Assembly: GCA_016183655.1 (NCBI GenBank)
Contig: JACPEH010000023.1
Coordinates: forward strand, 124,001-188,000
Direction of reading: 5' to 3'
From: Rhodocyclales bacterium
GTDB taxonomy: Bacteria > Pseudomonadota > Gammaproteobacteria > Burkholderiales > Rhodocyclaceae
Length of the DNA stretch: 64,000 nucleotides
Shown here: piece by piece, positions 8,382 to 63,992 of the stretch
Numbering within the stretch: the first letter of the stretch is position 1
Layout of the letters: each line of letters starts with the position of its first letter
Translations under genes and position numbers: made by a program
Notes under the pieces: model-generated
Told to the model about the DNA's origin: nothing
Database searches by the model: none
What the model saw: only the letters and a program-made list of their open reading frames with translations

Positions 8382-9611
8382 TCAGAAATTCTTTTCGAAC
8401 CAGGACTTCATCCGTCCCATGACCTGCTTGAAGCTGCGCGTCTCATGCACTTTCTGGCCGCGCTTGTGTTGCGTCTGCGCCTCCAGCAGCAGGCCGTAGG
8501 CGGTGGAAAAACGCGGGCTCTGCACGACGTCGGCAAGCGCGCCCGAATACTTCGGCGAACCCAGCCGCACCGGCATGTGGAAAATCTCCTCGCCGAGCTC
8601 GATCATTCCCGGCATCACCGCGGTACCGCCGGTGAGGACGATGCCCGACGACAGCACCTCCTCGAAGCCGGCACGGCGCAGCTCGGCCTGGATCAGCTCG
8701 AACAGCTCCTCGACGCGCGGCTGGATCACGTCGGCCAGCGCGCGGCGCGACAGCTTGCGGCTGGGGCGATCATCGACGCCGGCGACGTCGAGCACTTCCT
8801 CCGGGTCGGCCAGCTGCGACAGCGCGCAGCCGTGGCGGCACTTGATGTCCTCGGCTTCGCGCGTCGGCGTGCGCAGCGCCATCGCGATGTCGTTGGTGAT
8901 CTGGTCGCCGGCGATCGGGATCACCGAGGTGTGGCGGATCGCGCCCTGCGTCCACACGGCGATGTCGGTGGTGCCGCCGCCGATGTCGACCAGGCACACG
9001 CCGAGATCCTTCTCGTCCTCGGAGAGCACGGCATAGGACGACGCCAGCGGCTGCAGCACCAGGTCGTTCACCTCGATGCCGCAGCGGCGCACGCACTTGA
9101 CGATGTTCTGCGCGGCAGAGACGGCGCCGGTGACGATGTGCACCTTCACTTCCAGCCGGAAGCCGCTCATGCCGATCGGCTCGCGGATGCTGTCCTGGTC
9201 GTCGATGATGAATTCCTGCGTCAGGATGTGCAGGATCTCCTGGTCGGCCGGGATCGGCATCGCGCGCGCCGTCTCGATCACGCGGTCGACGTCCATCGGC
9301 GTCACTTCCTTGTCCTTGATCGCCACCATGCCGTTCGAGTTGAAGCTGCGGATGTGGCTGCCGGCGATCCCGGTATAGACGTCCTTGACCTTGCAGTCGG
9401 CCATCAGCTCGACTTCCTGGACGACGCGCGAGATGGCGGCGACGGTCTCCTCGATGTTGACCACGACCCCCTTCTTCAGCCCCTTCGACTCCTGCGAGCC
9501 GATGCCGATCACGTTCAGCCGCCCCTCCGGCGTCACTTCGGCGACCAGCGCGACAATCTTCGAGGTGCCGATGTCCAGCCCGACGATCAGATCCTTGCTG
9601 TCTCTGCTCAT
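8382..9611 (-). CDS. ftsA: Cell division protein FtsA
   Basis: 409 aa actin-like fold (LIVGLDIGTSKIVALVAEV, GVCLVDIGGGTTDIAV). Confidence 0.99.
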   Translation of the reverse strand: MSRDSKDLIVGLDIGTSKIVALVAEVTPEGRLNVIGIGSQESKGLKKGVVVNIEETVAAISRVVQEVELMADCKVKDVYTGIAGSHIRSFNSNGMVAIKDKEVTPMDVDRVIETARAMPIPADQEILHILTQEFIIDDQDSIREPIGMSGFRLEVKVHIVTGAVSAAQNIVKCVRRCGIEVNDLVLQPLASSYAVLSEDEKDLGVCLVDIGGGTTDIAVWTQGAIRHTSVIPIAGDQITNDIAMALRTPTREAEDIKCRHGCALSQLADPEEVLDVAGVDDRPSRKLSRRALADVIQPRVEELFELIQAELRRAGFEEVLSSGIVLTGGTAVMPGMIELGEEIFHMPVRLGSPKYSGALADVVQSPRFSTAYGLLLEAQTQHKRGQKVHETRSFKQVMGRMKSWFEKNF

Positions 9612-10357
9612 TGCTTCCCTTTGCTTTCAGTTACCTGCGCTGCCGCAAGCCGCAGCGCGAATCCGTTGGGGTACCGCATGTCCACCACGCTCGGCCGCGC
9701 CTTTGCCACGGTCAGCACGCTCGGGTAGTGGTTGACGAAGCGCTGCAGCCGGGTGCGGATCGGCACCTTGGCCTGCTGCCGGCCGAGCTCGATCACCATC
9801 CCGTCGTCCAGCTTCAGCTGTACCGCCAGCCGCGGCGACATGGTCAGTACGCGCGGCGCACGGCCCAGCGGCTTCAGCAGGTCCACCGCCTCGCGGTAGT
9901 AGCCGAGCATTTCCGGCGCGACGGCCAGCGGCCCGTGCAGCACCGGCAGCGGCTGCGGCACCGTCATCACCGCCGCAAACACCTCGCCATACGTATTCAC
10001 CAGCTGTCCGCCCGCCTCGCCCCATTGCGCCACCGGCCGATGCTCCTCGATGCGCACTTCCAGGCCGGACGGCCAGCGCCGGCGCACTTCCGCATGGCGC
10101 ACCCAGGACAGCTTCTCCAGCGAGAGGCGCAGCGCCTCGACATTGGCGCTGAAGAAATTGCCGCGCAACAGACCGGACATCGCCCGCTCGACATCGGCAC
10201 GCTTTACCTCGGTCAGCTCGTGCGCGACCACCACCTGCGACAGGCGGAAGTGCGGCAGCCGGGTGAACCAGACCGCCGCCGCCACCAGCAACGCGGCCGT
10301 CGCCGCCGCGAAGAGCAGGTCGGCAACGGCGGTCATCAGCTGCGGCTTGTTCCACAT
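9608..10357 (-). CDS. ftsQ: Cell division protein FtsQ
   Basis: 249 aa; single TM then POTRA-like region (FSANVEALRLSLEKLSWVRHAEVRRRWPSGLEVRIEEHRPVAQW); position between ftsA and ddlB. Confidence 0.95.
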   Translation of the reverse strand: MWNKPQLMTAVADLLFAAATAALLVAAAVWFTRLPHFRLSQVVVAHELTEVKRADVERAMSGLLRGNFFSANVEALRLSLEKLSWVRHAEVRRRWPSGLEVRIEEHRPVAQWGEAGGQLVNTYGEVFAAVMTVPQPLPVLHGPLAVAPEMLGYYREAVDLLKPLGRAPRVLTMSPRLAVQLKLDDGMVIELGRQQAKVPIRTRLQRFVNHYPSVLTVAKARPSVVDMRYPNGFALRLAAAQVTESKGKQ

Positions 10358-10378
10358 GGTTCATTCGCGCTCCCGCGT

Positions 10379-11284
10379 TCAGCCCTTCGCCGCCAGCGCC
10401 AGCACCCGCAGCACCAGCGCGTCGTAGTCGATCCCGGCCACCCGCGCCGCCATCGGCACCAGCGAGTGGTCGGTCATCCCCGGCGAGGTATTCACTTCGA
10501 GGAAGTGGGCATTGCCCGCCTCGTCCATCAGGAAATCGACGCGCCCCCAGCCGCGCCCGCCGAGCACGCGAAAGGCTTCCATCGCCTGCTCGCGGATGTG
10601 CCTCTCGCGCGCTTCCGGCAAGCCGCAGGGGCAGCGGTACTGCGTGTCGTCGCGGTTGTACTTGGCCTCGTAGTCGTAGAACTCGGTCGCCGGCTCGATC
10701 TTGATGATCGGCAGCACCTCGTCGCCGAGGATGCCGACCGTGTATTCGCCGCCGAGGATGCCGCGCTCGGCGATCACCAGCGGGTCGTATTTCGCCGCCA
10801 GCGCGTAGGCCGCCGCCAGATCGCCGCGGCGCTTGACCATCGAGATGCCGATCGACGAGCCCTCGCAGGCCGGCTTAACGAACAGCGGCAGGCCGAGCTC
10901 TTCCTCGACCTCGGCGAAATCGCTGTCGGCGTTGAGCAGCGCGTAGTCCGGCACCGGCAGCCCGGCCGCCTTCCACAACAGCTTGGTGCGCCACTTGTCC
11001 ATGCCCAGCGCCGACGCCATGACGCCGCTGCCGGTGTAGGGGATGCCCATCAGTTCGAGCACGCCCTGGATCGTGCCGTCCTCGCCGTGGCGGCCGTGCA
11101 GCGCGATGAAGGCGCGGTCGTAGCCGCGCAGTTCGTCGAGCGCGCGCTCGGCCGGATCGAAGGCGTGGGCATCGACGCCCTGCCGCAGCAGCGCCGCCAG
11201 CACGCGCGAACCGCTGTTCAGCGACACCGGCCGCTCGGCCGAGGTACCGCCGAAGAGGACGGCGACTTTTCCGAAATCAGTCAT
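10379..11284 (-). CDS. ddlB: D-alanine--D-alanine ligase
   Basis: 301 aa; ATP-grasp; [52 protein letters not shown]. Confidence 0.98.
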
Positions 11285-11298
11285 GACAAAAACCCCTT

Positions 11299-11402
11299 AA
11301 CCGCTCTTGACGCGGAGGTCGCAGAGACGCAGAGGACGCAGAGAAGAACCGGAAATCTCTGCGCGCTCTGCGTCTCTGCGCTCTCTGCGTTCAAGGCGGT
11401 TT
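11299..11402. repeat. Imperfect palindromic CGCAGAGACGCAGAG-type intergenic repeat
   Basis: Arms aaccgctcttgacgcggaggtcgcagagacgcagaggacgcagag (+) and aaccgccttgaacgcagagagcgcagagacgcagagcgcgcagag (reverse complement of right arm), 45 nt each with few mismatches. Confidence 0.85.
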
Positions 11403-11410
11403 CGTCCATA

Positions 11411-12799
11411 TCAAACATTCGCAAGCTTCCCCGGCACGCCGCCAATCGAACCCGCGCCCATGGTCAACACGACGTCGCCGTCGCGAACGACATCCAGAAT
11501 CGCCTGCGGCATCGCCGCGATGTCCTCGACGAAGACCGGCTCGACCTTGCCGGCGACGCGCACCGCGCGCGCCAGCGAACGGCCGTCGGCAGCGACGATC
11601 GGCGCCTCGCCGGCGGCATAGACCTCGGCCAGCAGCAGCGCGTCGACGCCGTTCAGCACCTTCACGAAATCCTCGAAGCAGTCGCGCGTCCGCGTGTAGC
11701 GGTGCGGCTGGAAGGCCAGCACCAGCCGCCGGCCGGGGAAGGCGCCGCGCGCCGCGGCGAGCGTCGCCGCCATCTCGGCCGGGTGGTGGCCGTAGTCGTC
11801 GACCAGCGTGAAGCGGCCGCCGCTCGGGCAGTCGACTTCGCCGTAGCGCTGGAAGCGGCGGCCGACCCCCTTGAACTCGGCCAGTGCCTTGACGATCGCC
11901 GCGTCCGGCACCTGCACCTCGGTGGCGACGGCGATCGCCGCCAGCGCGTTGAGCACGTTGTGCATGCCGGGCAGGTTCAGCGTCACCGGGAAGCGGCTGG
12001 TCGTGCCGTTCACCCGCACGCAGTCGAACTGCATGCGGCCGTCGGCGGCGACGACGTTCTCGGCATGCACGTTGGCCGACGGGTCGAGACCATAGGTGAC
12101 GATCTGCTTGGCCACCTTCGGCAGGATCTCGCGCACATTGGGATCGTCGGCGCAGAGCACGGCGACGCCATAGAACGGCAGGCGCTGCAGGAAGTCGACG
12201 AAGGCTCCCTTCAGCCGTCCGAAGTCGTGGCCGTAGGTCTCCATATGGTCGGCGTCGATGTTGGTCACCACCGACACCACCGGATTCAGGAACAGGAAGG
12301 AGGCGTCCGACTCGTCCGCCTCGGCGACGATGAAGTCGCCTTGCCCCAGGCGGGCGTTGGCGCCGGCGGCGTTCAAGCGGCCGCCGATGACGAAGGTTGG
12401 ATCGAGCCCACCCTCGGCGAGGATCGACGCGACCAGGCTGGTCGTCGTCGTCTTGCCGTGCGTGCCGGCGATGGCGATGCCCTGCTTCAGGCGCATCAGC
12501 TCGGCCAGCATCTGCGCGCGCGGTACCACCGGCACCTTCTTCTCGCGCGCGGCGACCACTTCCGGGTTGTCCGCCTTGACCGCCGTCGACACGACGACGG
12601 CGTCGGCGCCGGCGATGTTGTCGGCGGCGTGGCCGACGCGTACCTGCACGCCCTGCGCGGCAAGCCGCCGAGTCACCGCGTTATCGGCAAGATCGGAGCC
12701 GGAGACGGCGAAGCCGAGGTTGGCGAGGACTTCGGCGATGCCGCTCATGCCGGAACCGCCGACGCCGACGAAGTGGATGTGCTTGACCTTGTGTTTCAT
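11411..12799 (-). CDS. murC: UDP-N-acetylmuramate--L-alanine ligase
   Basis: Start trimmed to [42 protein letters not shown]. Confidence 0.98.
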
Positions 12800-55731: not shown

Positions 55732-55770
55732 GCCAGGCCGGCGCACCTTGCGCCCTGCCGGGCGCACAAA

Positions 55771-55800
55771 AAAAGGGGCCTGCCGAAGCAGGCCCCTTTT
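55771..55800. terminator. Bidirectional Rho-independent terminator
   Basis: aaaaggggcctgccgaagcaggcccctttt perfect inverted repeat between convergent genes. Confidence 0.9.
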
Positions 55801-55830
55801 GCCTTGGGGCGCAGGTCGCACCGCCCGCGC

Positions 55831-57825
55831 TCAGGTGCCGAAGAAGCCGACGCCGACCAGCAGCAACAAGGTCAGACCGACGCCGATCAGCACCAGACCG
55901 AGGACCACCGAGCCCGTGTGGAACTGGCGCGACGGCGGGTCGACCAGATACTGGGTGATCTCGCCGGAGTCGACCAGGCGCTGGTAGTGCGCCGGATGGT
56001 CGTGGCGGAATTCCTCAAGCGACTGGGTGCCGGTGAACATCACCACGTCCGGCGGCGGCAGCTTGTCCGGCCGGAAGTGGTTGTTGAAGAAATGCACCGT
56101 AAACAGGAAGACCGCCGCCAGGAAGGCTTCCTCGCCATGCACCAGCGTGCCGACGTTGAACACCCAACCCGGCAGGAAGGTCGCCGTGACGTGCGGGAAG
56201 GCCAGCATCAGGCCGCTCCAGCCGATGATGTTCACGCCCCAGAACACCGCCCAGTAGTCGAACTTCTCGTAGTAGGCCCAGCGGTCGAACAGCGGCCGCG
56301 GCCCCTTGCCGAAGAACCACTTGAACATGCCCCAGCAGTCGGCGAAGTCCTTCCAGTTCGGGATCAGCGAATCCGGGCCGAACCAGCGGAAGGTCTTGTC
56401 GCGCAACAGCCGCTGCATGACATAGACGAAGTGGATCATGAAGATGCCGATGAACAGGAAGGCCGCGACGCGGTGGATCAGGCCGAGCATCTTCGGCCCG
56501 CCGACCGCCTTGGCCACCACCGGCGCCCACACGCTTTCGGCGTAGAGCGCGCTGGTACCGGTCAGCACCAGCGTCATCGTGACCAGCGCGAAGACCAGGT
56601 GGGCAATCCGCCAGCCGACCGGGAAGCGACGGAAATGCTTCTTCGTATCGAGGACGAGGCCCTTGGTGTCGATGTGCGGCGGCGCCTTGCCGGCCTTGCG
56701 GTCCATCCACTCGCGGTAGTACCAGAGGCCGGAATGCGCCCAGAAGAAGGCAAAGACGAAGATCAGCAGCGCCACCATGAATTTCGAGGCGACGAACATC
56801 TGCGGGTATTTGTCGAAATCGTCGGTGCTCGCATGCGGCGCGAACGAGGCGAAGCCCGGGGTCGCATCGTGCATGCCCGGCTTCTTGTCGCTGTGGCACT
56901 TCATGCAGGTCTTCATCCGGTTCTTCGGATGCACCGTCGCGTTCGGGTCCTCGATCGCCTTGATGTCGTGGCTGCGATGGCAATCCACGCAGCGCGCCGT
57001 GTAGGTGTAGCCGAGGCGGTTCACCTGTCCGTGGTAGGTGTCGGTGTAGCTGTTCAGCTGCTTCTTGTGGCAATCGCCGCAGGTATTGACGTTGGCCAGC
57101 TTGAAGTTGTCGGTCGACGTATTGGTCACGCGGTGCGCCGAGTGGCAGTCGGTACACACCGCCGCCTTGACGTTGCCCTTGTCGATCAGCTCCTCGCCAT
57201 GGATCGATTCCTTGTAGGAATCCAGTTGATCCTCGTGACACTTGGCGCCGCAGGTTTCCGGAATCTCCTTGTGCCACGCGGTGCGCCGCTCGCTGCCCTT
57301 GGGCGGCACGCGGAATTCGTGGCTGCCGTGGCAGTCCTCGCAGAAGGCCTTGGCGCGCGATGGATCGTCGGTGTCGGGGCGTGCATGGAAGGACTTGCGG
57401 TAGTCGGCGATGTTCTCGACGACCAGGCCGAGACGATCCTGCCCCTGGGCCTTGTTGTCCTTCTGCGCATCCGCCCATAGCTGCTCGTGGCAGGTGATGC
57501 AGTTCGGCGCCCTGGCCTGCGGGTTCTTCTTGTGCTGCGCCTGGCTGTCGGTGATTTCGAGGTGGCAGGTAACGCACTGCATCCCGGCATGGATGCTCAT
57601 GCCGAACTTGCGCGAATCGACATGGGCGAGAGCGCGCTTGTCGCCCTCCTTGCCCGGCACCTCGATCTTGCCCTTCTTGCCGTCGTGACAGCTCAGACAG
57701 CTTGCGTTATCGAGGCCGGCCGTTGCCGCCCACACCTGGGCGCCCCCCAGCAAGGACAGCACGGTCACCAGCAAGCTGCCTAGCGACGCGATTGTCAGGG
57801 GCCGCTTGTTCTCCGCTCTAATCAT
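55831..57825 (-). CDS. CbcL-like fusion: multiheme cytochrome c N-terminus + cytochrome b561-type membrane domain
   Basis: 664 aa; signal peptide; CLSCH, CVTCH, CITCH, CEDCH, CGAKCH (CX3CH), CTDCH, CGDCH, CVDCH, CMKCH, then several TM helices with conserved His (HLVFALVTMTLVLTG, IHRVAAFLFIGIFMIHFVYV, HGEEAFLAAVFLFTVHFFNNH). Confidence 0.88.
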   Translation of the reverse strand: MIRAENKRPLTIASLGSLLVTVLSLLGGAQVWAATAGLDNASCLSCHDGKKGKIEVPGKEGDKRALAHVDSRKFGMSIHAGMQCVTCHLEITDSQAQHKKNPQARAPNCITCHEQLWADAQKDNKAQGQDRLGLVVENIADYRKSFHARPDTDDPSRAKAFCEDCHGSHEFRVPPKGSERRTAWHKEIPETCGAKCHEDQLDSYKESIHGEELIDKGNVKAAVCTDCHSAHRVTNTSTDNFKLANVNTCGDCHKKQLNSYTDTYHGQVNRLGYTYTARCVDCHRSHDIKAIEDPNATVHPKNRMKTCMKCHSDKKPGMHDATPGFASFAPHASTDDFDKYPQMFVASKFMVALLIFVFAFFWAHSGLWYYREWMDRKAGKAPPHIDTKGLVLDTKKHFRRFPVGWRIAHLVFALVTMTLVLTGTSALYAESVWAPVVAKAVGGPKMLGLIHRVAAFLFIGIFMIHFVYVMQRLLRDKTFRWFGPDSLIPNWKDFADCWGMFKWFFGKGPRPLFDRWAYYEKFDYWAVFWGVNIIGWSGLMLAFPHVTATFLPGWVFNVGTLVHGEEAFLAAVFLFTVHFFNNHFRPDKLPPPDVVMFTGTQSLEEFRHDHPAHYQRLVDSGEITQYLVDPPSRQFHTGSVVLGLVLIGVGLTLLLLVGVGFFGT

Positions 57826-58104
57826 TTTTCTTCCCTCTCAAAGTCGACAGGCTGCCGCGATGTGCAGCCACGAGAAGGACAGCCGACGTCCCCAAATCCG
57901 CCCGCCAATCCCCTTATTGTTTTTATGGTCTTTATCTGCCGCGCATTGTGCCACACCCGGGAGGCGGGCTCCAACGAGCACACCGTCACCTTAGCAGCAA
58001 ACTGCGCCGCGCACCGCCAAGCCGCGCGATTGCCGCGGCGGCAATCACCTGGGCATAATCAGACCCCAGCCACGCCGCGCAGCGCGCCGACCGAGGAGAA
58101 CGCC

Positions 58105-59583
58105 ATGCAGGAAACCGACCGCCCTCCGGTAACGGACGCCACGGCCACCGCCGCCGGCGCAATGACAGCGCTTTCCGCTCCGCCGCCCGCGGGCGCCGCC
58201 GGCATGCTGCTGCGCTGGCTGCAAGAGGGGGCGCGCACGGCGCTGCTGCGGCACGCGCGCTGGGACGGACTGCACGCCCGCCCGGCGATGATCGTCGGCC
58301 TGCTCGCGGTGAGCCTGCTGCTCATGTTCGTGCTGCAGCGGCTATGGGTCGTCGGCCCGGCCAGTTTCTACTGGCAGCCGCTGCTGGTCGGCTGGCTGGC
58401 GCCGGCGGCAACCGCCTGGGCGTGCTACGCCCTCCTCCACCCGGCCGACGGCAGCGCACCGGCGCACGCGCCGAGCGCCGCCCATCTCTTCTGCCTGCTG
58501 CAGGCGCAAGGCTGCCTGCTCGCGGCCGTCTACGGCCTGCTCTGGGCGATCGTCATCCAGAGCGGCGGCGGCATGCCGCCACTGTCGCCGACGCTACTCT
58601 GGGGTATCTGGATCAGCCTCTGGGTCTGGCTCGGCGCCGCGCAGACGCTGACCTTCTGGCGCGGCACCCCGCGCAAGGGGCGGGCATTGGCGCTGGCCGT
58701 GCTGCTGCTGGCGCTCGGACTCATCGAGAGCGGCAGCAGGCAGGAGACGCTGTGGGTCGCCGAGGCCGGCGCCACCGCGGCGCCCGAGCCCACGCCGCGC
58801 CGGCTCGTGCTGACGCAGGAGCTGATGGAACAGCAGCCGCTGCTGCTGGGCCGTCGCCTGCAGGCCTTGCAGGCCCAGCGGCCGGGCATCGTCGACCTCT
58901 ACGCGCTGACCTTCGCGCCGTACGCGCACGAGGACGTCTTCCGCCGCGAGAGCGAGATGGTCGCGGGCGTCATGGCGCAGCGCTTCGACAGCGCCGGCCG
59001 CAGCCTGCAACTGGTGAACCATGCGACGACGGTGGACGACTGGCCGTGGGCGACGCCGCTCAACCTGCAGCGCGCCATCCGCCACCTCGCCGGGCTGATG
59101 GACCGCGACGAGGACATCCTGTTCATCCACCTCACCTCGCACGGCGCGCAGGACGGCCAGCTCGCCGCCCAGTTCTGGCCGCTGAGCGTAGCCGCAGTGA
59201 CGCCGCAACAGCTGAAGGCCTGGCTCGACGAGGCCGGCATCCGCCACCGCGTAATCTCGGTCTCCGCCTGCTACTCGGGCAGCTGGATCGCACCGCTGCG
59301 CGACGACAACACGCTGGTGATGACCGCCGCCGACGCCGAGCACACCTCCTTCGGCTGCGGGCGCCAATCCGAGCTGACCTACTTCGGCCGGGCGATTTTC
59401 GACGAACAGCTGCGCACGCAGACCCGCTCCTTCGAAGCGGCACACGCCGCAGCGCGTCCGCTGATCGAGCAGCGCGAGCGCGAAGCGGGCAAGGACGACG
59501 GCTACTCGAACCCGCAGATCGACATCGGCAGCAGCATCCGCGAACGGCTGGAGCGGATGCGCCGGCAGCTGGAGACCGGTTAG
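58105..59583 (+). CDS. Membrane-anchored peptidase C13 (legumain/caspase-like) family protein
   Basis: N-terminal TM helices; ILFIHLTSHGAQDGQL (catalytic His) and HRVISVSACYSGSWIAPL (catalytic Cys). Confidence 0.85.
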   Translation: MQETDRPPVTDATATAAGAMTALSAPPPAGAAGMLLRWLQEGARTALLRHARWDGLHARPAMIVGLLAVSLLLMFVLQRLWVVGPASFYWQPLLVGWLAPAATAWACYALLHPADGSAPAHAPSAAHLFCLLQAQGCLLAAVYGLLWAIVIQSGGGMPPLSPTLLWGIWISLWVWLGAAQTLTFWRGTPRKGRALALAVLLLALGLIESGSRQETLWVAEAGATAAPEPTPRRLVLTQELMEQQPLLLGRRLQALQAQRPGIVDLYALTFAPYAHEDVFRRESEMVAGVMAQRFDSAGRSLQLVNHATTVDDWPWATPLNLQRAIRHLAGLMDRDEDILFIHLTSHGAQDGQLAAQFWPLSVAAVTPQQLKAWLDEAGIRHRVISVSACYSGSWIAPLRDDNTLVMTAADAEHTSFGCGRQSELTYFGRAIFDEQLRTQTRSFEAAHAAARPLIEQREREAGKDDGYSNPQIDIGSSIRERLERMRRQLETG

Positions 59584-59642: not shown

Positions 59643-60536
59643 TCAGGCGGCGGACGGAGCGTCGACCGGCAGCTCGATGCGGAAGGTGGTGCCCTCGCCG
59701 ACGCGGCTCTTCACGTCAAGCCGCCCGCCGTGGCGTTCGACGATGTCGCGGGAGATCGACAGGCCGAGGCCGGTGCCCTTGCCGACCGGCTTGGTGGTGA
59801 AGAAGGGTTCGAAGATGCGGGCGCGGACCTCGTCCGGGATGCCCTGGCCGGTATCGGCAATTTCCACCCACACCCGGTCGTCGGCGGCACCGGTGCGCAG
59901 CGTGATGGTGCCGGTGGAATCGATCGCCTGCACGGCGTTGACCAGCAGGTTCATGAACACCTGGTTGATCTGGCCGGGGATGCAGACGACCGGCGGCAGC
60001 TCGCCGTAGTCGCGCACCACCTGCGCCTTGTATTTCAGCTCGCTCCAGATCACGTTGAGGGTGCTCTCCAGCCCGCGGTGCAGGTCGACGGTTTCCCGCT
60101 GCCCTTCGTCGGTGCGCGAGAAACCCTTGAGGTCGCTGATGATCTGCTTGACCCGGTCGAGCCCCTCGACCGACTCGCGCAGCAGGTCGGGAACATCCTG
60201 GCGCAGGTAGTCGATCTCGAGCGTCGCGCGCAGGCGAGCGACCGCCTGCCGCGCCGGATGTTCGGCCGGCAGCGCCTGCTCCATCGCCTCGTAGGCGGCA
60301 AGCAGCTCGAACAGGCGGCCAACGTAGGTGCCGAGCGCCCCCAGGTTGGAGCTGACGAAGCCGACCGGGTTGTTGATCTCGTGCGCCACCCCGGCGGCCA
60401 GTTGGCCGACCGAGGCGAGCTTCTCCGACTGCAGCAGCTGGCTTTCGATCTGCTTGACGTGCGCCCGCAGGCGCTCCAGCTCCGCGCCCGCATCCGTCGC
60501 CGGCCGAACGGCCGCATTGTCGTCGATGCCGTTCAT
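59643..60536 (-). CDS. Soluble sensor histidine kinase
   Basis: EKLASVGQLAAGVAHEINNPVGFVSSNL; NLLVNAVQAIDSTGTITL; FEPFFTTKPVGKGTGLGLSISRDIVERHGG. Confidence 0.94.
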   Translation of the reverse strand: MNGIDDNAAVRPATDAGAELERLRAHVKQIESQLLQSEKLASVGQLAAGVAHEINNPVGFVSSNLGALGTYVGRLFELLAAYEAMEQALPAEHPARQAVARLRATLEIDYLRQDVPDLLRESVEGLDRVKQIISDLKGFSRTDEGQRETVDLHRGLESTLNVIWSELKYKAQVVRDYGELPPVVCIPGQINQVFMNLLVNAVQAIDSTGTITLRTGAADDRVWVEIADTGQGIPDEVRARIFEPFFTTKPVGKGTGLGLSISRDIVERHGGRLDVKSRVGEGTTFRIELPVDAPSAA

Positions 60537-60546
60537 CTCATCCCCC

Positions 60547-62784
60547 TTATTCCGGTTCCGGGCCGAGCACCCGCAGCACTTCGGCCATCGGCGTCTCGCC
60601 GTGCGCCACCTTGTGCCAGGCGTCGTCCCACAGCGTTTCGTGGCCGCCGGCGCGGGCGTGGGCCGCCAGCTCCTTCATGCTCGCGCCGCGGGCGACCAGG
60701 TCGCGCATCCCTTCGTCGGGCAGCAGGATCTCGTAGAGCCCGACGCGCCCCTTGAAGCCGCTGCCGTCGCACTCGGCGCAGCCGGCGCCGACGTAGCCGC
60801 GCACCGGCGTGTCGCGGAAGCGCGGCCCGAGGCGGGCGGCGAGCGCGGCGTCGGTCACCACCTCCTGCCGGCAGTGGCGACAGATGCGGCGCACCAGGCG
60901 CTGCGCGATGATGCCTTCGAGCGCACTGGCGACGATGAAGGGCTTCATGCCCAGGTCGAGCAGGCGGGCGACGGTGGCCAGCGCCGAGTTGGTGTGCAGC
61001 GTGGACAGCACCTGGTGGCCGGTGAGCGCCGCATGGAAGGCGACCTCGGCGGTCTCGATGTCGCGGATCTCGCCGATCAGCACAACGTCCGGGTCCTGGC
61101 GCAGGATCGAGCGCAGCACCGTCGGGAAGGTCAGGCCGATCTTCTCCTTGACCAGCACCTGGCCGGCGTTGTCCAGGTAATACTCGACCGGGTCCTCGAT
61201 GGTGATGTAGTTCTTGGCCGGCGAGGCGTTCGCCTGCAGCAGCGAATAGAGCGTGGTGGTCTTGCCGCTGCCGGTCGGGCCGGTGGCGAGCAGCAGGCCC
61301 TGCGGCTTGTCCACCATCACCCGCACCTTGGCCAGTCCCTTCTCGCCGAAGCCCAGCCCAGCCAGGCTCAGCACCGCCGAGTTGCGGTCGAGGATGCGCA
61401 TCACCACTTTCTCGCCGTTGATCGTCGGCAAGGTCGAGATGCGCAGGTCGACCACCCGCAGTGGCGACTTGACCGTCAGCCGGCCGTCCTGCGGCCGCCG
61501 CCGCTCGGAGATGTCGAGCTCGGCCATGATCTTCAGCCGCGACACCAGCGGCCCGTGCAGCGCGTGCGGAATCTGGATCTTGTCGTGCAGCACGCCGTCG
61601 ATGCGCAGACGGACGACGACGTTCTTGGCGCGCGGCTGCAGGTGGATGTCGGAGGCGCCGAGGCGCATCGCTTCGAGGATGATGGCGTTGGCCAGGCGGA
61701 TTGCCGGCGGCTCGTTGGTCGCCGCCAGCAGCTCGTCGATCGGCACGTTCTCGTCTTCGTCGATGACGATCTCGATGCCCTCGTAGGGGTCGACGCTGCC
61801 GACGACGGTGGCCAGGTCGCGGAAATCGGTCGTGCTGCCCTCGCCGTAGAGTTCGTTGATCTTGGCGCGGATCGCCGCGGAATCGGCCATCACCACCTTG
61901 AGGTCGAGGCCGGCGGTGAAGCGCACGTCGTCGATCAGGCCGGCGTCCATCGGGTCGGCCACCGCCAGCAGCAGGCGGCGCCCTTCCAGCTTGAGCGGCA
62001 CCACCAGCTGCTTGTCGCAGAACGAGCGCGGGATCAGCTCGGCCACAGCGGCGTCGACGCGGAACTCGTCGAGCGCCACCTCCTCGACCAGCAAGTCCTC
62101 GCGCAGGATCTTGCGCAGCATTTTCTCGGTGACCCAGCCGCGGTCGAGCAGCAGCTTGAGCAGCGGCTCCTTGTGGATGCCCTGCAGGCGGGTGAGCTCC
62201 TGCAACTGGGCGCTGGTCAGCAGCTGCTTCTTGTGCAGCATGATCCCCAGCTGGCTACGGTTGGACACCGCGAGGCGCGACAGCGCGCTGATCTCCTTCG
62301 CCTTGCGCGTGTTCTCCTGGCTGAGCTGGCGGTTCTTCTGCACCAGGTCGTACTGCTCCAGCGCCAGCGACACGGTGACGCGCAGGTCGTCGTCGTTCCA
62401 CGGCTTGAGGATGAACTTGTACACCGCGCCTTCGTTGATCGCCCCCATCACCGCACCGGTGTCGGCGTGGCCGGTGAGCATGATGCGGATGGTGTCGGGG
62501 TAGAGGGCCTTCACCTGCTTGAGCAGCTCGGCGCCGGTCATGCCGGGCATCATGTAGTCGCTGATGATCACCTGCGCCGGCGCCTCGTGCAGTCGCGCCA
62601 GCGCTTCGCTGCCGTTGGCGGCGGTGACTATCTCGTAGGCTTCGCTGCGGAAGGTGCGCGTGAGCGCCTTGAGGATGCCCGGTTCGTCGTCGACGATCAG
62701 CAGGCGGTAGCGCGCTGGCGCCGTGCCGCCGTTGGCGGCGGGAGCGTCGGCGGAACCGGTGAAGTAGGCGGCGTAGTTGGTCAT
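60547..62784 (-). CDS. Receiver domain fused to a GspE/PilB-type secretion ATPase
   Basis: REC RLLIVDDEPGILKALTRTF...IISDYMMPGMTGAELLK; GspE-like N-domain; Walker A LLLATGPTGSGKTTTLYSLL; Walker B DPDVVLIGEIRDIETAEVAFHAALTGHQVLSTLHTNSA; CxxC...CxxC zinc motif CRHC/CAEC. Confidence 0.95.
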   Translation of the reverse strand: MTNYAAYFTGSADAPAANGGTAPARYRLLIVDDEPGILKALTRTFRSEAYEIVTAANGSEALARLHEAPAQVIISDYMMPGMTGAELLKQVKALYPDTIRIMLTGHADTGAVMGAINEGAVYKFILKPWNDDDLRVTVSLALEQYDLVQKNRQLSQENTRKAKEISALSRLAVSNRSQLGIMLHKKQLLTSAQLQELTRLQGIHKEPLLKLLLDRGWVTEKMLRKILREDLLVEEVALDEFRVDAAVAELIPRSFCDKQLVVPLKLEGRRLLLAVADPMDAGLIDDVRFTAGLDLKVVMADSAAIRAKINELYGEGSTTDFRDLATVVGSVDPYEGIEIVIDEDENVPIDELLAATNEPPAIRLANAIILEAMRLGASDIHLQPRAKNVVVRLRIDGVLHDKIQIPHALHGPLVSRLKIMAELDISERRRPQDGRLTVKSPLRVVDLRISTLPTINGEKVVMRILDRNSAVLSLAGLGFGEKGLAKVRVMVDKPQGLLLATGPTGSGKTTTLYSLLQANASPAKNYITIEDPVEYYLDNAGQVLVKEKIGLTFPTVLRSILRQDPDVVLIGEIRDIETAEVAFHAALTGHQVLSTLHTNSALATVARLLDLGMKPFIVASALEGIIAQRLVRRICRHCRQEVVTDAALAARLGPRFRDTPVRGYVGAGCAECDGSGFKGRVGLYEILLPDEGMRDLVARGASMKELAAHARAGGHETLWDDAWHKVAHGETPMAEVLRVLGPEPE

Positions 62785-62801
62785 GAGTGGGTCATGGCGG
62801 A

Positions 62802-63992
62802 TCAGGCGGGTAGCGCGACGGTAACGACGGTGCCGCCCTCGAGCGGGCAGCTGATGTCGACCTTGCCGCTGTGGGCGAGGATGATGTCGCGCGCCACGGT
62901 CAGGCCGAGGCCGGTGCCGGCACCGACCCCGCGCGTGGTGAAGAAGGGGTCGAAGACGCGCGGCAGCACCTCGGCGGGAATGCCCGGGCCGTCGTCGCGG
63001 ATGCTCACGGTGATGTTGTCGCCGACGGCGCGGCTGCGCACGGTCACCGTGCCGCCGGCCTCGACCGCCTGCAGCGCGTTCTGCAGGATGGCGAGGAAGG
63101 CCTGGTTGAGATGGCCGGGCAGGCACATCAGCGGCGGCAAGGGCTGCAAGTCGGCGACGAGGTTTACCGCCTCCGGCTTCTGGCCATTGACCACGGCGAG
63201 CAGCGCGGTCAGTTGCGCGTTGAGGTCGACCAGCTGCTCCTCCGGCTGGTCGACGCTGGAAAAACCCTTGAGGTCGCGGACGATGCGGGCGATCCGCTCC
63301 AGTCCCTCGCGCGTGTCGCGCAGCAGGTCGGCAAAGTCGGCGAAGACGAAGTCGAGATCCTGCTGCTGCCAGACCGCCGGCGGAATCACGTCGCGCAGCG
63401 CGGCGAGCTGCGCGCGGTAGCGTTCGGCGGCAAACAGGTTGCTGCCGATGAAGCCGAGCGGGTTGTTGATCTCGTGCGCGACGCCGGCCGCCAGCTGGCC
63501 GATCGACGCCAGCCGCTCGGCCTGGTAGAGCTGGCGCTGGCGCTCGTCGATGATCTGCGTCTGCTCGCGCACCTTGGCGTCGAGGTTCGCCGCCAGCTCG
63601 CGGTACTTCGCCTCGGACGCCTTCAGCGCCTCGTTCTGCTGCTGCAGCTTGGCGTAGTCGGCGCGCACCGCTTCCAGATGCAGGTCGGAAACCATGCGCA
63701 GCCGCGCCCGCGAGAGCAGGCCCCAGCGCAGCAGCCGCGCGATGCCGGCCAACGCCGACGGCGGGCAGTCGGCGGCGAGAAAGCCCAGCGGCTCCAGTTC
63801 GAGGACCAGCGGCGCGCGCGCCGCGCCCGGCGCCGGCGGTGCGCTGTCGGCAAAGGGCGCGCCGCCGGCGTCGAGCAGGCTGACCGGGACGCCGAGCAAG
63901 CCGGTGGCGGCGGCGCACAATTCGGCGGCGTCGCGCGGGGCCAGCAGTTCCTGCAGCGTGAAATCGCGGTCGAATTCGTTGCCCGGGTTCAT
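62802..63992 (-). CDS. Sensor histidine kinase with N-terminal sensory/coiled-coil region
   Basis: QAERLASIGQLAAGVAHEINNPLGFIGSNL; NALQAVEAGGTVTV; FDPFFTTRGVGAGTGLGLTVARDIILAHSG. Confidence 0.94.
   Translation of the reverse strand: MNPGNEFDRDFTLQELLAPRDAAELCAAATGLLGVPVSLLDAGGAPFADSAPPAPGAARAPLVLELEPLGFLAADCPPSALAGIARLLRWGLLSRARLRMVSDLHLEAVRADYAKLQQQNEALKASEAKYRELAANLDAKVREQTQIIDERQRQLYQAERLASIGQLAAGVAHEINNPLGFIGSNLFAAERYRAQLAALRDVIPPAVWQQQDLDFVFADFADLLRDTREGLERIARIVRDLKGFSSVDQPEEQLVDLNAQLTALLAVVNGQKPEAVNLVADLQPLPPLMCLPGHLNQAFLAILQNALQAVEAGGTVTVRSRAVGDNITVSIRDDGPGIPAEVLPRVFDPFFTTRGVGAGTGLGLTVARDIILAHSGKVDISCPLEGGTVVTVALPA

Follow-up and report, generated by a model that had tools for sequence, protein, structure and literature searches.

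A fused nonaheme cytochrome c/cytochrome b of the CbcL/MtrH/MtoC family and its candidate partners in a Rhodocyclales genome

We found that a 664-aa protein encoded in a 64-kb stretch of Rhodocyclales DNA (the window, meaning the whole stretch analysed; G000:C3:124001-188000 of source genome G000) belongs to the CbcL/MtrH/MtoC family, on its beta-proteobacterial MtoC/MtrH side. It is probably an inner-membrane quinol/quinone:cytochrome c oxidoreductase, with a mtoD-mtrA-mtrB row on another contig (C1) as its best available partner. Considering that nine c-heme sites and nine further histidines are invariant, that the membrane domain has the fold of FdnI and that the family is linked to mtoD, mtrA and mtrB, a quinone-linked relay to periplasmic cytochromes is well supported by anatomy and family, from which its heme ligation and quinone chemistry are deduced. 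Use of the C1 conduit in the source organism is plausible, although here we infer a partnership between unlinked genes. The source genome is 88% complete and in 28 contigs, so that the absence of an EB_dh gene or an MtrC-type protein from it is unproven. The protein itself is a new member of a described family; the branch of its relatives linked to EB_dh is less familiar, and the interest of the finding lies in this branch and in the split mto gene set.

Anatomy of the fused cytochrome

The open reading frame (CDS) starts with ATG, occupies exactly 55831-57825 on the minus strand, which also holds all features of the protein given below, and is present in one copy in the source genome. Its GC content by codon position (0.58/0.42/0.90) shows a strong third-position bias, and from this bias and its full-length conservation it is a genuine gene. 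A purine-rich, ribosome-binding-like site read from the sequence, GAGAGGGAAG, lies 4 nt 5' of the ATG (57830..57839, minus strand).

Hydropathy indicated an N-terminal signal peptide at about residues 1-33 (57727..57825), or at about 8-33. The periplasmic c domain follows at about residues 34-335 (56821..57726), defined by its motifs and by matches above the Pfam cut-offs to Cytochrome_C7, Cytochrom_c3_2 and Paired_CXXCH. The nine c-heme-type motifs that the initial annotation had read in one polypeptide were borne out, as eight CXXCH and one CX3CH. In order, these are CLSCH (residues 43-47, 57685..57699), CVTCH (84-88, 57562..57576), CITCH (109-113, 57487..57501), CEDCH (162-166, 57328..57342), the CX3CH motif CGAKCH (192-197, 57235..57252), CTDCH (224-228, 57142..57156), CGDCH (249-253, 57067..57081), CVDCH (279-283, 56977..56991) and CMKCH (307-311, 56893..56907). 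The Cys and His of all nine motifs were 100% conserved among 90 distinct homologues. Exactly nine other periplasmic His were invariant in the same set (residues 79, 98, 147, 169, 209, 231, 265, 286 and 331), a number sufficient for nine bis-His c-hemes; they probably provide the second ligand of each c-heme, the pairing being deduced from sequence.

The six-transmembrane (TM) cytochrome b domain, about residues 341-661 (55843..56805), was delimited by fold, conservation and topology. Hydropathy and AlphaFold2 placed its helices at about 341-376, 403-427, 444-474, 515-541, 553-582 and 633-661, and the positive-inside rule fits this arrangement, with 7 and 7 Lys + Arg residues in the cytoplasmic loops and 1 and 0 in the periplasmic loops. 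In the homologue alignment, TM His 364, 409, 451, 563 and 578 were invariant. The predicted topology has His451 and His563 facing the periplasm and His409 and His578 facing the cytoplasm, and these four are likely the b-heme ligands.

The membrane domain was modelled alone with AlphaFold2 (50 homologues, pLDDT 78), and the sole significant Foldseek match of this model in the PDB was 1kqf_C, the gamma subunit of formate dehydrogenase-N (FdnI) of E. coli (E 3.5e-4, probability 1.00, target TM-score 0.77); the cytochrome b of E. coli hydrogenase-1 stood further down the list and was not significant. The full-length model gave no significant Foldseek match in the PDB, probably due to a heme-less model and uncertain domain packing. 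Sequence searches of the PDB brought up weak multiheme cross-matches only, and nothing for the membrane domain, so that homology to FdnI rests on fold. The Pfam b561 family (Ni_hydr_CYTB) scored a weak 16 bits against the window protein and was matched, mostly weakly, in 29 of 30 family members. With six TM helices and the FdnI fold, the b561/HydC-like membrane domain that had been proposed for this protein stands. FdnI is without c-hemes, has four helices and works with FdnGH, whereas the window protein has two more helices and the nonaheme domain; the spacing of the b-heme ligands is presumably similar in the two.

Considering the FdnI fold and a 28-bit score against the formate dehydrogenase gamma profile (under its cut-off of 116), the protein might be read as the quinol-linked subunit of a NapC/NirT, thiosulfate, tetrathionate or formate dehydrogenase enzyme. 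This is very improbable, in that neither the window nor the relatives inspected have a catalytic-subunit gene next to it, save a frdABCD-like set at one locus (L142), and that in the homologues the nonaheme and b domains are parts of one fused protein. No thiosulfate or tetrathionate reductase family was matched, the affiliation that the initial annotation had named as telling against its own CbcL-like reading. The NapC/NirT profile (PF03264, Cytochrom_NNT) did not match the window protein either, and matched only 4 of 30 relatives (best E 2e-5). NapC/NirT proteins such as CymA are tetraheme with one N-terminal helix, whereas the window protein has nine c-hemes and six C-terminal TM helices.

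In the proposed mechanism, quinol would be oxidised, or quinone reduced, at the diheme FdnI-like b domain, and electrons would traverse the membrane through two b-hemes, likely one towards the periplasm with His451/His563 as ligands and one towards the cytoplasm with His409/His578. The onward path would lead along the nine c-hemes, each probably with two His ligands, to a small MtoD-type monoheme cytochrome c, and the C1 mtoD-mtrA-mtrB row would take electrons through the outer membrane. Based on the model and on analogy with FdnI, the two b-hemes would span the membrane and the quinone site would lie on its cytoplasmic side. If the site is so placed, inward electron flow would build membrane potential and outward flow would spend it.

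Family, conduit and direction of electron flow

CbcL has been described with nine c-heme motifs, six TM helices and a HydC/FdnI-like b domain; across the family, 3-23 motifs occur, the TM His are conserved and the genes often adjoin mtrAB or mtoAB and mtoD (PMC6295460; for the layout also PMC5566968 and PMC8805035). The window protein has these family features, namely multiple N-terminal c-heme motifs, six TM helices in the C-terminal half and a HydC/FdnI-like diheme b domain. It is 57-89% identical to beta-proteobacterial MtoC/MtrH-type kin, among them the reference proxies L079 (Dechloromonas, 64%) and L094 (Rhodoferax, 61%); the named MtoC, MtrH and CbcL were compared through such proxies or through published descriptions. 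The layout is identical to that of CbcL of Geobacter sulfurreducens (PMC6295460), which might suggest that the window protein is a true CbcL orthologue, specialised in respiring low-potential acceptors. Such orthology is improbable: Geobacter CbcL is about 35% identical to the MtoC/MtrH group, a published figure for the group (PMC6295460), against the 57-89% that the window protein shares with its beta-proteobacterial kin, and in the genomes the partners are MtoD/MtrAB or EB_dh. Thus the first description, CbcL-like, holds for the layout, while the kinship is with MtoC/MtrH-type proteins and not with CbcL itself.

MtoC, from the published mtoABCD gene set, is like the window protein a nonaheme inner-membrane cytochrome with six TM helices (PMC6295460, PMC5566968). 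The Dechloromonas locus carries mtrA-mtrB-mtoC and a monoheme cytochrome, whereas the window gene is solitary, with the mtoD-mtrA-mtrB row of its genome on a separate contig; the clustering of mtoA, mtoB and mtoD with the gene was found in many relatives and not at the window locus. MtrH of Rhodoferax ferrireducens (the CbcL-family MtrH of Shi and co-workers) shares family and layout, and its cluster also holds cymA and mtrC (PMC6295460); the Rhodoferax homologue L094 adjoins mtrA-mtrB and falls in another clade than the window gene.

No outer-membrane conduit genes were found in the 64-kb window, which agrees with the initial annotation, but what holds for the window does not hold for the genome. 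Porin-cytochrome genes, which that annotation had pointed to as worth seeking elsewhere, are present on contig C1, where an mtoD-like 116-aa monoheme cytochrome c (L120:8490-8840), a decaheme DmsE/MtrA (mtrA/dmsE, 8917-9894; E 2e-77) and an MtrB/PioB porin (mtrB/pioB, 9895-12027; E 6e-144) lie in a row. The genome therefore has every component of the published four-part mto set, split between contigs.

Homologues of the gene were present in 65 of 299 family genomes, and a tblastn search against plasmids gave no match. Of the 65 genomes that have the gene, 43 also have MtrB; of the 234 that lack it, 38 do (odds ratio 10, Fisher p 3e-14, a test that ignores kinship and draft-genome gaps). The best 80 named homologue loci were listed, all from beta-proteobacteria and near kin. 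Among these 80, the gene often adjoins a monoheme cytochrome c, a decaheme DmsE/MtrA and MtrB, and a few loci also carry a protein of about 1000 aa with about ten c-heme motifs. One homologue (L007/L039, 249-2114) has an early in-frame TAA, which may mark a pseudogene or stem from misassembly. Three facts count against the C1 partnership: the gene is unlinked to the conduit in the source genome, its own clade mostly does not adjoin mtrAB, and 22 of the 65 genomes with the gene are without MtrB. The gene's own clade comprises 37 rows with a support of 99 in a tree of 90 homologues.

The direction of electron flow may be either that of quinol oxidation or that of quinone reduction. Both have been proposed in the family, and no feature distinguishes its oxidases from its reductases (PMC6295460). 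Of the earlier term quinol oxidase, the link to quinone can be kept and the fixed direction cannot. As to the quinone, the genome has menD above cut-off and ubiG, and mqnA was not found in it; a menaquinone route is hence plausible, menD being the one gene of the menaquinone pathway behind it. In an inward flow, electrons from an extracellular or periplasmic donor such as Fe(II) or a cathode would pass through MtrB-MtrA-MtoD to the window protein, which would reduce quinone near the cytoplasm and build proton-motive force, much as the FdnI redox loop does in its normal direction. We regard this as a real possibility, though not the likelier one. MtoC of iron oxidisers has been proposed to be a quinone reductase (PMC6295460), the relatives listed include Gallionella, Sideroxydans and Sulfuricella, and with b-heme His predicted on both sides of the membrane, electrons could move either way. 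However, ImoA of Sideroxydans oxidises quinol in vivo (PMC9600427), which makes proposed directions unreliable, and menD suggests a low-potential quinone fit for outward flow.

Two recurrent genomic partners

The family has two recurrent genomic partners, MtrAB and EB_dh. The 37-row clade contains a subclade of 19 rows (support 94, drawn open) that includes the window gene and its congener; of the 17 other loci in this subclade, 15 have EB_dh upstream. The usual order at the EB_dh loci is a dCache_3 histidine kinase, an NtrC-type regulator, EB_dh, a monoheme cytochrome and the cytochrome c/b gene, the kinase and regulator preceding EB_dh in most of the longer loci. The EB_dh of this subclade is a diheme form of about 440 aa with one CXXCH and one CX3CH motif. 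The pairing recurs beyond the subclade in L086 and in L141 and L142, whose homologues are 52-53% identical to the window protein; in L142 the pair is preceded by the frdABCD-like set, in which frdA and frdB were recognised by Pfam and two small membrane genes by position. Some genomes of the Aromatoleum/Azoarcus type have two copies of the gene, one adjoining MtrB and the other adjoining EB_dh.

Among the 299 family genomes, long EB_dh was found in 22 of the 65 that have the gene, against 12 of the 234 that lack it (odds ratio 9.5, p 8e-9, ignoring kinship and draft-genome gaps), and MtrB and EB_dh showed no significant link in the same genomes (p 0.30). Since shared descent and draft gaps were ignored, these co-occurrence statistics are leads. 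MtrB was absent from 22 of the 65 gene-bearing genomes, which include most of the nearest relatives in the family sample, the congener G053 excepted.

It is possible, although we think it rather unlikely, that the true partner of the window protein is a periplasmic or lipoprotein EB_dh diheme cytochrome in a respiratory branch that can do without an outer-membrane porin-cytochrome conduit; the MtrAB row would then draw on a different quinol enzyme, for example the NapC/NirT protein of contig C16. The subclade loci, the further pairings, the co-occurrence and the genomes with one copy in each context speak for such a partner. Against it, a long EB_dh gene was not found in the 88%-complete source genome (the best match was short and NapC-linked, E 1e-16), the congener G053 (99% complete) has a long EB_dh far from the gene, and EB_dh also occurs with NapC or in genomes without the gene. 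Many family genomes have short EB_dh genes, and EB_dh adjoins NapC in L136. Because it stands beside NapC or other quinol modules too, EB_dh looks like a common acceptor or donor for quinol dehydrogenases. At L134:4063-13770, a kinase, an NtrC regulator and EB_dh are followed by a NapC-like cytochrome, an Fe-S protein, NrfD and a molybdopterin oxidoreductase; the front half is that of the window clade's operon, and the quinol module differs.

Extracellular transfer, as first proposed for this protein, gains from the conduit elsewhere in the genome but is not the sole reading, since most genes of the clade have either EB_dh or just a monoheme cytochrome beside them. For the MtoC/MtrH family as a whole, we tentatively suggest that there may be two outlets, namely the MtrAB outer-membrane conduit, or a unit under NtrC-type control in which the enzyme would work with a monoheme carrier to serve a diheme EB_dh-family cytochrome; the window's clade would belong with the second. 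The EB_dh-linked operon is a concrete candidate for a second function, and a literature search found no description of this branch. Homologues of CbcL and MtoC are customarily taken as evidence of extracellular electron transfer (EET) in genomes and metagenomes; if there are two outlets, many "EET marker" calls from an MtoC/MtrH-family gene would be wrong. The gene alone is in any case an unsafe marker of metal respiration, because 22 of the 65 gene-bearing genomes have neither MtrB nor the Uet undecaheme protein, and 12 of these 22 have long EB_dh.

Surroundings of the gene and other cytochrome loci

The cytochrome gene stands alone in the window, between AzlCD genes on one side and a C13 peptidase gene on the other. 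It ends at a terminator-like hairpin with a U tract, common to it and the convergent AzlCD genes (55762..55806, minus strand), for which RNA folding gave -26.5 kcal/mol and a z of -4.0, although a simple terminator scan did not list it. A functional tie to the window neighbours (AzlCD, C13 peptidase, histidine kinases) was considered and rejected, as none of them is an electron-transfer gene and the gene terminates at the shared hairpin. The gene for the Peptidase C13 family protein (573 aa, 57862-59583, plus strand) and the cytochrome gene are divergently oriented. The position directly upstream of the cytochrome gene is occupied by a histidine kinase in the congener G053, so the C13 frame may be an insertion. 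Further on, a receiver domain (response regulator) is fused to MshEN and a GspE/PilB-type ATPase (60547-62790, minus strand), flanked by two histidine kinases (59643-60536 and 62802-63992).

Other electron-transfer genes lie elsewhere in the genome. A Uet-like cluster on contig C17 (L122:5196-19366) encodes a 905-aa protein with eleven CXXCH motifs, a tetraheme protein, two NHL-repeat proteins and a C7-type cytochrome. The tetraheme protein matches 7tfs "cytochrome c" (E 7e-28), which we take to be the OmcE filament. The Uet undecaheme protein (Uet is described in PMC10734462) was found in 26 of the 299 family genomes. Uet was rejected as a substitute conduit in the MtrB-less relatives, where the undecaheme occurred in 0 of 22 genomes. 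The genome holds one NapC/NirT protein, a tetraheme cytochrome, which is adjoined by a short EB_dh with one c-heme motif on contig C16 (L123:10746-11624 and L125). Contig C12 (L121:7889-9802) encodes a 637-aa protein with a lipoprotein-like signal and seven CXXCH motifs, weakly akin to the GSU2203 and DmsE decaheme families.
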